Source: Gardnerella vaginalis 1500E (lineage in GTDB: Bacteria; Actinomycetota; Actinomycetes; Actinomycetales; Bifidobacteriaceae). From it: DNA of 64,000 bases. The stretch covers positions 62,001 to 126,000 of the forward strand of contig NZ_ADES01000005.1 in the NCBI RefSeq assembly GCF_000263595.1, given 5' to 3'. A model generated the notes under the pieces. The model made no database searches. It was given only the letters and a program-made list of their open reading frames with translations, and was not told where the DNA came from. Positions 60,290 to 64,000 of the stretch are shown here, in pieces (position 1 is the first letter of the stretch; each line of letters opens with the position of its first letter). Both the position numbers and the translations under genes were made by a program.

Positions 60290-61918
60290 ATGCTCAATAT
60301 AAATTCACTATCTTCACTAAGAGAGAGTAATCAATTAGAAGCAAAAGTGGCTTCAAATGGTACGCCGAGAAGTATGTGGGAAACGTATTGTGCTTTTGCT
60401 AACACGAATGGTGGAACTATCTTGTTGGGTGTAAGTGAAGACGCACAGCATAATTTACAACTTGTTGGCGTAAATAATCCTGAACAAATGGTAAAAGATA
60501 TTTGGGATACGCTAAATAATAAGAATAAAATTAGTTCGAATATTCTTATTGAAGAAAATATTTCTATTGAACAAACGGATGATAATAAATCTATTATTCG
60601 CATAACTGTTCCAAGAGCAAATCGTTCTGATAAGCCGATTTATATTAATGGAAATCCTATAGGTGGTACGTATCGTCGCAATTTTGAAGGCGACTACAAA
60701 TGTTCGCAAGAAGAATATCAAGCTATGGTTCGAGATAATGGTTCGAGTGTAAATTCTATGGATCAATCTCCACTGCTGCAGCGTAGTGTTGACGATTTTG
60801 ATATGGATACTGTACAATCCTATCGCAATATGCTAAGTGCAGTGCGTCCTCAACATCCTTGGCTTACGCTTGATACAGATGAATTTCTTATGAGAATCGG
60901 AGCATTAGCAAAGGACGAGTCGAATAAGTTACATCCCACTCGAGCAGGTCTTTTAATGTTTGGTCATGAGTGGTGCATTCTTACGGAATTTCCGTACTAT
61001 TTTCTCGACTATAGAGAAGTTACAAATGCTAACAGTAGGTGGAGTCATAGAATTACCAGCTCGGATGGTTCGTGGAGTGGGAATCTTTATGATTTTTGGA
61101 ATACTGTATGGCAACGTCTTTCTCGTAAAATTGATGTACCATTTCTGCTTAATTCGCAATCATTAAGAGTTGACGATACTCCTTTGCATATGGCAGTTAG
61201 AGAAGCCCTTGCAAACACGTTGATTCATGCTGATTATTATATGAGGGGTAACACTGTTATTACATATAATGATGCTGTGAACAATGAGATTGATAGTTTT
61301 TCACAGTCTTCTATAGAACCCAATAGTGTGAATACTGGTTTTAAGCTTTCTTTTGCAAACCCTGGGTGTCTACGTATGCCTATAGAAGTGGCTTTAGCTG
61401 GAGGTTTTTCGGATTCTCGGAATCCCGCACTTCTTAAAATGTTTGCACTGATTTCTGTTGTTGAACGTGCAGGAAGTGGATTTGATGCCATGAGAGCTGG
61501 TTGTGATTGGGCTGGAATAAGCCATCCAAAGTTAAGTGAGTCATTTAATCCAGACCGTACTACTCTTGAATTTTTTGTAAGCGATAATAATAACTTTGTA
61601 TCTAGTTCTGCAAAAAACAAAACTAAGCTTAATGGTGATTCGTCAAATTTAGTGAATAGTACTTATAATTCAGAACTTACTGCAAATACACTTTTGCAAG
61701 ATTCTAATAAATCAAATAAACGTATGAGTGTTGACGATTGCTATAAAAAGATTATTGAAGCATTGCATAATCATGGAACAATAAAACGTGAGCAAGTGCA
61801 AAATATTCTTAACGTGGGTAGTACCAAGGCTAAGCAATTGTTGTCTAATCTAGTTAGTAGGGGAGATATTTCAGTTTGTGGAAAGGGCCGAGCTACTACT
61901 TATATTTTTAACCACTAG
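60290..61918 (+). CDS. AlbA_2/Schlafen-type regulator with ATPase-like and winged-helix domains
   Basis: 542 residues. An N-terminal AlbA_2 domain ('ESNQLEAKVASNGTPRSMWETYCAFANTNGGTILLGVSED') is followed by 'IYINGNPIGGTYRRNFEGDYKCSQEE'. A central GHKL-like ATP-binding region ('AVREALANTLIHADYY', 'SFANPGCLRMPIE', 'VVERAGSGFDAMR') comes next. A C-terminal winged helix ('IKREQVQNILNVGSTKAKQLLSNLVSRGDI') closes the protein. This is the architecture of predicted transcriptional regulators such as COG2865, whose targets are mostly unknown. The region is more AT-rich than its neighbours and looks accessory. Confidence 0.85.
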   Translation: MLNINSLSSLRESNQLEAKVASNGTPRSMWETYCAFANTNGGTILLGVSEDAQHNLQLVGVNNPEQMVKDIWDTLNNKNKISSNILIEENISIEQTDDNKSIIRITVPRANRSDKPIYINGNPIGGTYRRNFEGDYKCSQEEYQAMVRDNGSSVNSMDQSPLLQRSVDDFDMDTVQSYRNMLSAVRPQHPWLTLDTDEFLMRIGALAKDESNKLHPTRAGLLMFGHEWCILTEFPYYFLDYREVTNANSRWSHRITSSDGSWSGNLYDFWNTVWQRLSRKIDVPFLLNSQSLRVDDTPLHMAVREALANTLIHADYYMRGNTVITYNDAVNNEIDSFSQSSIEPNSVNTGFKLSFANPGCLRMPIEVALAGGFSDSRNPALLKMFALISVVERAGSGFDAMRAGCDWAGISHPKLSESFNPDRTTLEFFVSDNNNFVSSSAKNKTKLNGDSSNLVNSTYNSELTANTLLQDSNKSNKRMSVDDCYKKIIEALHNHGTIKREQVQNILNVGSTKAKQLLSNLVSRGDISVCGKGRATTYIFNH

Positions 61919-62026
61919 GTAAACAAAACCGCACATGTGTGGAAAATAATCTACTTATTCTAAATTTTGTATACAAACAGTTTTACAATGTATCATCAAA
62001 ATATTTTAGTAGATTGTGAATAAAAA

Positions 62027-62587
62027 ATGAGTAAACAGATGATCGAAACAGAAAGATTAATTTTGCGCGCCTGGACTCAAGATGACGCTGAAGATTTATT
62101 TAAGTATGCTGCAGATCCAGATGTTGGGCCTATTGCAGGATGGCCTGTTCATAAAAGTATTGAGGATAGCAAATCTACTATTAAGAATGTTTTTCTTAAC
62201 GCAAAAGAATGTTACGCTGTGTGCTTAAAGTCAAGTAACAAAGCGATTGGATGTATTGAGCTAAAGCTTAACGGTCATACGGATATGACTTCTAGGGATG
62301 ATGAGTGCGAGTTGGGTTATTGGGTTGGTAAGCCTTTTTGGGGCAAGGGTTATATTCCAGAGGCTGCGAAAGCTTTGATTCAGTACGGTTTTGACGAGCT
62401 TAACATGACGACTATTTGGTGCGGATATTACGATGGCAACAATAAGTCGAAGCGCGTTCAGGAAAAGTGTGGTTTTGAAGCATATTGCGTGGATTCTTCC
62501 GTTGATGTGCCGCTTATGCATGAAACTCGCGTGCGCCATCGTAATGTTTTAACCAAATCTCGCTGGCAAACTCTTTCTGGCAAGTAA
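62027..62587 (+). CDS. GNAT acetyltransferase, RimJ/RimL type
   Basis: 186 residues. 'IETERLILRAWTQDDAEDLFKYAADPDVG' is the typical start of RimJ/RimL-like N-acetyltransferases. 'YWVGKPFWGKGYIPEAAKALIQYGFDEL' is the acetyl-CoA loop, and 'NNKSKRVQEKCGF' follows. The substrate is unknown; family members acetylate protein N-termini or small molecules. No ribosome site is evident before the ATG. The flanking gene upstream is the AlbA_2 regulator, with 108 bases between and no stated link. Confidence 0.88.
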   Translation: MSKQMIETERLILRAWTQDDAEDLFKYAADPDVGPIAGWPVHKSIEDSKSTIKNVFLNAKECYAVCLKSSNKAIGCIELKLNGHTDMTSRDDECELGYWVGKPFWGKGYIPEAAKALIQYGFDELNMTTIWCGYYDGNNKSKRVQEKCGFEAYCVDSSVDVPLMHETRVRHRNVLTKSRWQTLSGK

Positions 62588-62613
62588 TTACTGTTATTTT
62601 CTCAGTTGGCTGA

Positions 62614-62761
62614 CTGCGTTAGTAACGGTGTTTGGGTGATTACCGTTACTTTTGCAGATACTTGACTGCGTTAGTAACGTATAATCTCGCTTTTTCGTTA
62701 CTGACGCAGTTGGTGCGCTGCATTAGTAACGGATAGACGTGTTTTTTTGTTACTGGTGCAG
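62614..62761 (+). repeat. three tandem 44-nt hairpins with exact 52-bp period
   Basis: Units lie at 62614-62657, 62666-62709 and 62718-62761, each starting CTGC and ending GCAG. The arms are variants of CTGCGTTAGTAACG and CGTTACTGACGCAG; the loops differ. The first unit pairs AGTAACGGT with ACCGTTACT. A lone half-unit CTGCGTTAGTAACG reappears at about 63076-63089. No coding sequence seen in 62588-63241. Confidence 0.85.
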
Positions 62762-62797
62762 TTGGCGCTCGCGCGGATTACGCGCTCGCTTACGAAA

Positions 62798-62890
62798 CTC
62801 GCGTTGGAAGTCCACTGGACTTCCAACTTAAGCGAGTTTCCGCTCCGAGTTGCCTTCGCGCGCTAAATCGCAGCGCTCAGGCAGGTCGTC
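62798..62890. repeat. hairpin unit A: covarying stem plus conserved 50-nt block
   Basis: The stem has CTCGC/GCGAG (62798-62802, 62832-62836) outside and GTTGGAAGTCC/GGACTTCCAAC (62803-62813, 62817-62827) inside. It is followed at 62841-62890 by a 50-nt block that can fold through TGCCT/AGGCA. Unit B repeats this layout. A GCGCG/CGCGC hairpin lies just before (62771-62785). Confidence 0.8.
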
Positions 62891-62942
62891 AGCGCACACA
62901 AAACACAACCAGATTCCCAATGAGCAACCGCGCGAATCTGCC

Positions 62943-62970
62943 CTGTCTTCGTCTTTTCTGACGAAGACAG
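62943..62970. repeat. perfect 11-bp hairpin before unit B
   Basis: CTGTCTTCGTC (62943-62953) and its complement GACGAAGACAG (62960-62970) enclose the loop TTTTCT. It sits six bases before unit B, in the place where unit A has a GCGCG hairpin. Confidence 0.75.
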
Positions 62971-62976
62971 ACCTCG

Positions 62977-63072
62977 CTTGCGTTGAAAGCACACCCGTGC
63001 TTTCAACCTTGAGCAAGCTCGGCGCTCCGAGTTGCCTTCGCGCGCTAAATAGCAGCGCTCAGGCATGTCGTC
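62977..63072. repeat. hairpin unit B: same layout as unit A with compensated stem changes
   Basis: The outer stem is CTTGC/GCAAG (62977-62981, 63013-63017). The inner stem is GTTGAAAGCAC/GTGCTTTCAAC (62982-62992, 62997-63007). The 50-nt block at 63023-63072 matches unit A at 48 of 50 positions. Against unit A the stems differ at four pairs, each changed on both sides so that pairing is kept. Confidence 0.8.
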
Positions 63073-63148
63073 GCGCTGCGTTAGTAACGTTTGAAGGTAC
63101 AGCGTATATGCACCTGCGCTTATTTCATATTAGAGTAGTAAAAATGCT

Positions 63149-63223
63149 GATTTTGGGGTAAATTTGCGAAATAAAATTGTCGATTTTGGGGTAATACGCT
63201 AAAATAAAATTGTCGATTTTGGG
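63149..63223 (+). promoter_or_regulatory. 33-bp-spaced direct repeats upstream of the AAA ATPase gene
   Basis: GATTTTGGGG occurs at 63149, 63182 and, as GATTTTGGG, at 63215, exactly 33 bases apart. The last two are preceded by AAATAAAATTGTC. The third overlaps the ribosome-site region (GGGAAGAAAGGTGG) of the ATPase gene, so an operator or autoregulatory array is likely. Confidence 0.6.
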
Positions 63224-63241
63224 AAGAAAGGTGGAATTACA

Positions 63242-64000
63242 ATGGTTTACGAAGGTGATAAATCAACCCTCAAGTTCCCGCGCAAAATCTATTCCGAAAT
63301 GCTAGCCTGGAAGCGCGAGTCCAAAGGCAAAACAGCGTTGCTTATCGAAGGTCCGCGTCGCGTAGGTAAATCGACAATCGTAAAAGAATTCGTCCAAAAT
63401 GAGTACGAGAGCTACATTCTTGTCGATTTTTATACCGCATCGAAAGAAGTAAAGGAGCTGTTTGATGACCTTTCGGACATAAACTATATTTTCTTGCAGC
63501 TGCAGCTAGCATACAAAACAAGCTTAAAAGAGCGCAAATCTTGCATTGTCTTCGACGAAGTACAGCTTTGCCCTAAAGCGCGTCAAGCCATAAAAGCTTT
63601 AGTAAGTGACGGAAGATATGACTATATAGAAACCGGTTCGCTAATTTCGATTCACAAAAATGTTAAGGATATTCTTATTCCTAGCGAAGAACATAAGTTG
63701 AAAATGTATCCGATGGATTATGAGGAGTTTACTCGAGCGCTTGGTGATGAAGTTACTATTCCGCTTCTGCGTAAACTATATGATTCTAAAAAGCCAATCG
63801 GTCAGGCTGCATACAGGAAGATTCTTAGAGATTTTCGTCTTTATATGCTGGTCGGTGGGATGCCGCAAGCTGTAGAAAGTTATATTGAAACTAACGATTT
63901 TAGTGCTGTGGATCAAGTGAAACGCGACATTCTTTCACTGTATGAGGATGATTTTAGGAAGATTGACGCGACTGGTAAAATTTCCGCAATTTTCGACGCT
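63242..64000 (+). CDS. AAA/DUF4143-family ATPase, 5' part only
   Basis: 253 codons from ATG 63242 to the window end, still open. Walker A is 'LLIEGPRRVGKSTIVKEF', Walker B is 'CIVFDEVQLCPKARQAI', and sensor-like 'IETGSLISI' follows. 'MYPMDYEEFTRAL' and 'YMLVGGMPQAVESYIET' are typical of the AAA_14/DUF4143 family. Biological role is unknown for the family; members are scattered accessory genes and may be linked to stress or defence. The last part, including the DUF4143 domain, lies outside the window. AAAGGTGG precedes the ATG. Confidence 0.88.
   Translation, partial: MVYEGDKSTLKFPRKIYSEMLAWKRESKGKTALLIEGPRRVGKSTIVKEFVQNEYESYILVDFYTASKEVKELFDDLSDINYIFLQLQLAYKTSLKERKSCIVFDEVQLCPKARQAIKALVSDGRYDYIETGSLISIHKNVKDILIPSEEHKLKMYPMDYEEFTRALGDEVTIPLLRKLYDSKKPIGQAAYRKILRDFRLYMLVGGMPQAVESYIETNDFSAVDQVKRDILSLYEDDFRKIDATGKISAIFDA

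Follow-up and report, generated by a model that had tools for sequence, protein, structure and literature searches.

A three-hairpin repeat was found in two adjacent copies, unit A and unit B, in a 64,000-nt stretch of the Gardnerella vaginalis 1500E genome (the window; contig NZ_ADES01000005.1, positions 62,001 to 126,000; coordinates below are those of the window). These units probably belong to a family of small interspersed palindromic REP/BIME-like repeats of the genus, which acts and evolves as DNA; we assign this reading a probability of about 0.6. The family appears to be without earlier description: titles and abstract beginnings of the open-licence literature gave no account of such repeats in Gardnerella or Bifidobacterium.

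An earlier note on the window had described two units of the same layout, each a two-part stem followed by a 50-nt block. This was borne out by the sequence. The blocks, at 62841-62890 and 63023-63072, are spaced by 182 nt and share 96% identity (48/50), and the short stems could be read off directly, at 62795-62802/62832-62839 (outer) and 62803-62813/62817-62827 (inner) in unit A and at 62976-62981/63013-63018 (outer) and 62982-62992/62997-63007 (inner) in unit B. The four compensated stem changes between the units that the note had reported are all present (outer C-G to T-A; inner G-C to A-T, T-A to C-G, and C-G to A-T), and a fifth compensated pair lies farther out in the outer stem of hairpin 2, A-T in unit A and G-C in unit B. 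That every change keeps its pair is true of the short outer stem alone. The next two pairs outward, A-T and A-T in unit A, correspond to a T.C/C.T tandem mismatch in unit B (62974-62975 vs 63019-63020), beyond which pairing resumes (C-G, C-G). The layout itself was also incomplete, as the 50-nt block is a third hairpin rather than a tail, and an extra hairpin stands 5' of each unit. DNA folding of 62763-62895 and 62941-63077 gave three adjacent hairpins per unit on each strand. The extended units A and B folded 5.7 and 9.2 SD below dinucleotide shuffles on the + strand and 5.7 and 8.8 SD below them on the - strand, and 0 of 200 shuffles was as stable (DNA folding parameters).

Hairpin 1 of unit A (62767-62789, + strand, as are all features given here) is seen in the sequence and the DNA fold and carries a TC/TC tandem mismatch at 62769-62770 vs 62786-62787; this internal loop appears in the - strand fold, and the + strand fold differs slightly there. 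The same module occupies the same place in many copies and is swapped for other hairpins in others. Hairpin 2 of unit A (62794-62840) consists of the outer stem 62794-62802/62832-62840, the inner stem given above, and a 3' bulge, TTAA, at 62828-62831; it is supported by sequence, DNA fold, covariation, and a match to the covariance model R2 described below. Hairpin 3 (62841-62894), which includes the 50-nt block, has the outer stem CGC[TC]CGA/TCG[TC](a)GCG and an inner stem at 62852-62861/62873-62882, as indicated by sequence, DNA fold, and compensated variants. The spacer that separates the units (62895-62942) is seen also between tandem copies elsewhere. In unit B, hairpin 1 (62943-62970; sequence and DNA fold) has an 11-bp stem with a 6-nt loop, and its sequence is not related to that of its counterpart in unit A. 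Hairpin 2 of unit B (62972-63022; sequence, DNA fold, and a match to the model R1) contains the tandem mismatch described above in its outer stem and a 3' bulge, CTTGA, at 63008-63012. Hairpin 3 of unit B (63023-63075), which includes the second 50-nt block, rests on sequence, repeat comparison, and DNA fold.

The units are two of many copies. Unit A, used as a DNA query, gave 16 matches in its own genome and 32, 9, and 5 in three others of its GTDB genus, all small (1.5-1.6 Mb), counts that include matching of the palindromic stem on the other strand; the other 35 of 39 genomes gave no match. The earlier note had proposed a covariance-model search across genomes, and such a search did find further copies, in which pairing was kept through double changes. 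The model R1 was built from 37 copies, chosen among 71 dissimilar ones of 127, with both window units in the training set. It gave 19, 49, 45, and 72 matches in four Gardnerella-size genomes (E up to 1e-4) and 44 matches in 1.47 Mb of stretches from three genomes. The model R2, for which E-values are rough, was built from 15 of 16 copies from relatives and no Gardnerella copy. R2 found unit A out of sample (E 7.4e-8, G000:C5:124786-124846); unit B had no R2 match at E 0.001 and was matched by R1, whose training set includes it. Across the genus, 93 of 112 genomes carried R2 matches (E 0.001), as many as 48 per genome, the most that were scored; the remaining 19 had none. The per-genome counts from the scans across the genus are lower bounds, with 34 (R1) and 48 (R2) candidates scored per genome. 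Among 149 genomes drawn from the order, six matched R2, three of them members of the genus and three others with rough E-values of 3.9e-7, 1.2e-5, and 4.9e-4. R2 matched none of five genomes from other genera within the family.

Weak R1 matches in the larger genomes of the genus, which we take to be Bifidobacterium because GTDB places Gardnerella in that genus, were considered as chance matches; this was rejected, since the same layout was found in them, and they were treated as relatives. Their layout comprises an outer stem, a TA/yTTRAC internal loop, and an apical GGAAAGYCC..GGRCTTTCC-type stem. Of the 112 genus genomes, 69 contain the apical pattern AAAGYCCASNGGRCTTT, and tandem arrays exist among the relatives as well. 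At four loci of relatives (L160-L163), from several genomes and near one peptidase-like gene, very long near-perfect hairpins with stems of ~16-24 bp directly adjoin hairpin 2. In a collection of 84,980 species, a gapped core pattern matched at least 117 stretches, and among the matches listed, 79 of 80 named loci belong to Gardnerella or to the Bifidobacteriaceae strains NR021 and NR047. The remaining one, in a metagenome-assembled genome called Bacillota (L047), is without hairpins 1 and 2 and by our reading arose by chance.

Pairing was kept while the sequence changed. In the R1 alignment of 37 copies, 92.6% of cells pair, and double-sided changes occur at 17 of 29 pairs. The alignment holds 124 double-change cells vs 38.2 in shuffled alignments (0/500), and only 0 to 15 such cells remain when the partner is slid by 1-3 columns. 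The number of further pair types, 22, was not above that of the shuffles (25.2). The R2 set of 15 copies from outside Gardnerella behaved alike, with double-sided changes at 10 of 17 pairs and 25 double-change cells vs 5.1 (0/500). Among 51 distinct copies matched to R2, such changes were found at 12 of 17 pairs, a number reached by 9 of 500 shuffles, and in 125 cells vs 25.8 (0/500). As to the alignments, seven short-stem copies of A1 were omitted from A2 because the aligner had misplaced them; A3 contains 100 loci, and A3 and A6 were fitted to their own models.

The three hairpins differ in how they vary. Hairpin 1 differs wholesale between copies. Hairpin 2 combines an apical stem and an asymmetric 3' bulge, mostly yTRA, with a freely varying outer stem; the bulge was seen in 141 of the 146 unique copies. 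For hairpin 3, we considered the outer stem as a conserved linear motif and rejected this because rarer copies carry compensated variants (CGCATTGA/TCAATGCG, CGGATTGA/TCAATCCG, CGCTTTGA/TCAAAGCG, CGAATCGA/TCGATTCG, CGAATTAA/TTAATTCG, and CGCTCCGA/TCGGAGCG). Where two adjacent mismatches interrupt a stem, they are mostly TC opposite TC. Counted as copies, which are not independent events, TC/TC accounts for 116 of 120 tandem mismatches in the outer stem of hairpin 3, 69 of 82 in its inner stem, and 20 of 23 in the outer stem of hairpin 2 of the relatives, and at the remaining stacked positions, taken together, it leads again (59). It is also present in unit A (hairpin 1) and in unit B (hairpin 2). 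TC/TC on one strand is GA/GA on the other, here mostly preceded by a pyrimidine and followed by a purine, and this pyrimidine-GA-purine context is typical of sheared tandem G.A pairs in DNA. This is a hint that recognition concerns the other strand.

The copies lie mainly between genes. With ORFs called mechanically, 111 of 117 copies with enough flanking sequence were outside large ORFs, and L047 was among the six that overlapped one. Convergent flanks were found for 41 of 99 copies vs 35 of 213 control gaps of >150 nt (odds ratio 3.6, P 4e-6), and divergent flanks for 7 of 99 copies vs 43 of the same 213 gaps (odds ratio 0.30, P 0.003). The bias with respect to replication was weak: in the six complete genomes examined among the relatives, 80 copies were head-on and 55 co-directional (P 0.04, the copies not being independent). 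No bias was seen in the complete, Gardnerella-size genome G123, where a hand count from dnaA gave 19 vs 18 for the 37 places listed of 45.

The preference for convergent gene ends would also be expected of a transcription terminator or a 3' mRNA stabilizer, and the apical stem AAAGYCC..GGRCTTT, with its A-tract, GC stem, and T-tract, resembles a bidirectional terminator. We nevertheless consider this function rather unlikely as an explanation of the units. No T-run follows any stem of units A and B, and a simple terminator scan of 61900-63300 gave one site, at 63101-63120, outside the units, compared with 1.9 in shuffles. Termination also leaves the bulge, hairpins 1 and 3, and the TC/TC motif unexplained. 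Moreover, REP elements are described as favoring such gene ends too, without termination defining them (PMC3733652).

The gene downstream of the units did not prove to be a partner of theirs. The earlier note had linked them to a neighboring AAA/DUF4143 gene, but a homologue of this gene was present at only 2 of 116 element-bearing Gardnerella loci, mostly 8 kb stretches. The AAA part of the name stands, as the 252 residues encoded within the window match Pfam AAA_14; these residues gave no DUF4143 match, the remainder of the gene lying outside the window. Directly upstream of the gene, 63136-63234 holds three 33-nt tandem copies around GATTTTGGGGTAA. The interval between a GNAT gene and a gene that we take to encode a transaldolase carries different genes in different genomes, with repeats nearby (window 62000-64000, L198, L199, and L201): the AAA_14 gene in G000 and G101, and two other genes in G066. 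In G066, a 157-nt stretch that takes in the end of the GNAT gene and the CTGCGTTAGTAACG repeats lies beside each variable gene (L201 2043-2199, 4307-4463, and 6251-6925).

The same covariation and stable folding (by DNA parameters) could point to a structured non-coding RNA, or a pair of small RNAs as the earlier note had suggested, transcribed from the units and selected for RNA structure. Selection on a + strand RNA would give more G.U than A.C cells. In 4,115 pair cells of 146 unique copies, however, we counted 34 G.T and 46 A.C, and with the outer stem of hairpin 3 included, 38 and 70, the latter partly due to a register shift in one variant. An excess of A.C over G.T on the + strand is what a minus-strand RNA would give, but it vanishes when the same counts are taken as distinct column types (23 vs 23). 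The relatives showed 4 G.T vs 8 A.C. All these counts are few and come from copies that are not independent. There is no + strand G.U excess, and thus a + strand small RNA is not supported; in our judgement, ~1% of G.U-type cells is low for a selected RNA on either strand. Rfam 15 gave 0 matches at gathering scores in the whole window, and a tRNA/tmRNA search of the window found none. The units are copies of a dispersed repeat, present as tens of mosaic copies per genome in which hairpin 1 is exchanged wholesale, and this too speaks against an RNA. We regard RNA-level selection as improbable, though the A.C counts leave some room for a minus-strand RNA, and the claim of a small RNA pair is not supported.

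The sparse G-U intermediates fit DNA hairpins with copying of one arm onto the other better than they fit a + strand small RNA. Template switching during replication can create and repair hairpin arms and gives multi-base compensatory changes (PMC8794818). A few copies of the repeat show changes of a templated kind: in L044, TCAA is inserted exactly opposite the TTGA bulge (4 nt, exact complement), and in L068 and L073 the bulge is lost, leaving nearly continuous stems. Because template switching can yield compensatory changes, the double changes are evidence for hairpin formation by DNA and not, on their own, for a selected function. The earlier conclusion of strong evidence for a selected structure was therefore partly right: the structure is real, exists in many copies, and is kept through compensation, but "selected" was too strong a word. 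Its other suggestion, recombination hairpins, is unproven and nearer in spirit than the small RNA pair.

The A+B pair is itself inside another repeat. Its flanks form the two arms of an enclosing hairpin, at 62749-62761 (GTTACTGGTGCAG) and 63076-63088 (CTGCGTTAGTAAC, repeat family D4), and an uninterrupted relative, the empty form, is located just upstream at 62697-62730. Another uninterrupted hairpin of the enclosing kind, with the loop TTGGCGCG, is present at L216. Compared with the L216 copy, the A+B insert is consistent with a gain at TTGGCGC/GCGCTGC in which no more than two bases were duplicated; the filled hairpin reads TTGGCGC..GCGCTGC where the empty one reads TTGGCGCGCTGC. The region 62584-62731 holds three copies, at 52-nt spacing, of this second repeat with CTGCGTTAGTAACG, which form hairpins GTTACT..CAG/CTG..AGTAAC, and the A+B pair is inside one more hairpin of this type. 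Other Gardnerella intergenic repeats likewise host three-hairpin units (L097, L131, L076, L103, and the window), one of them with GAGATTTGAGATTTTTCGCACTGAGCG.

Duplicated flanks were found at 14 of 128 copies at match scores of 9-21, plus three at higher scores, vs ~3.3 for swapped flanks up to score 21. Neither the filled/empty pairs, which are often messy, nor the flank comparisons gave a target duplication of constant length. Target duplications of 12-14 bp were considered and dropped, because the best cases are inside other repeats and most copies show none. The copy at L082 stands between direct repeats of at least 32 nt, which may be a long target duplication or have arisen by tandem duplication locally. 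No Y1/RAYT transposase (PF01797) was detected in 12 genomes or in a separate search of the window's own genome, and the same search was positive in 6 of 14 control genomes. A MITE, a non-autonomous transposon relic mobilized by a transposase of the DDE or another type, would suit the filled and empty hairpins and the flank duplications above the swapped-flank level, but it is quite unlikely given that most of these duplications are, by our reading, tandem copies or other repeats without constant length, that the element ends are separate hairpins and not one terminal inverted repeat, and that 62740-63100 matched nothing in plasmid and phage collections.

The preferred reading, a REP/BIME-like DNA repeat, would work as follows. 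We infer that both the action and the evolution of the element take place at the DNA level. In its single-stranded state, for example at replication forks, it would fold into its hairpins, and template switching by the polymerase within a hairpin would copy one arm onto the other, producing many of the compensatory changes. As the searches gave no REP-type transposase, we propose that copies increase in number and swap hairpin modules along a passive or borrowed route. Both the persistent bulge and the recurrent TC/TC (GA/GA on the opposite strand) have the look of recognition or stability features, perhaps for a putative protein. A more specific version is possible but doubtful: these would be genus-wide hairpin elements of single-stranded DNA that have no transposase of their own, whose opposite strand, with its tandem G.A pairs and TYAR bulge, is read by a putative bifidobacterial enzyme, or which depend on template switching at forks alone, their sequence being renewed by arm copying.

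The family is large and structured, and its many copies in many species offer a natural test of whether compensatory changes come from selection or from template switching. The answer bears generally on claims of RNA structure that rest on covariation. A protein that binds the hairpins, should there be one, would be a new participant in the genome dynamics of bifidobacteria. Repeats of this kind might also interrupt assemblies and could serve strain typing.

Several known systems share parts of this behavior. Pneumococcal BOX and RUP repeats are modular, intergenic, and present in many copies per genome, and in sponge mitochondria repetitive hairpin-forming elements multiply in intergenic DNA. 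The modularity of the former and the intergenic spread of the latter, in an animal organelle, are alike in description to what we see here. The closest resemblance is to REP, BIME, and REPIN elements, which are short palindromes with many intergenic copies, clusters, a preference for convergent or unidirectional gene ends, and conserved unpaired features (PMC3733652). Unlike these elements of the RAYT-associated GTAG superfamily, the repeat described here has three hairpins per unit. It also has no constant unpaired GTAG in the aligned copies or at the unit ends, and the Y1 transposase associated with GTAG REPs (PMC3733652) is the one that gave no PF01797 match in the 12 genomes. CGTC-tagged REPs, including dRS3 and RPE repeats, are said to be without a dedicated transposase; their CGTC is unpaired, with stems of 8-9 bp and loops of 4-5 nt (PMC3733652). 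Our repeat is likewise REP-like and without a known mover, and its 3' end is GTCGTC. In contrast to the CGTC REPs, this GTCGTC is in the outer stem of hairpin 3, where it pairs with CGCTCCGA save for the TC/TC mismatch, and perfect variants exist. The main text of PMC3733652 contains no word beginning Bifidobacter or Actinobact. Because the repeat lacks the tested marks of both the GTAG-REP/RAYT and the CGTC-REP groups, we file it as a new REP-like family outside both; in layout, dispersal, and location, this three-hairpin repeat resembles REP/BIME elements.
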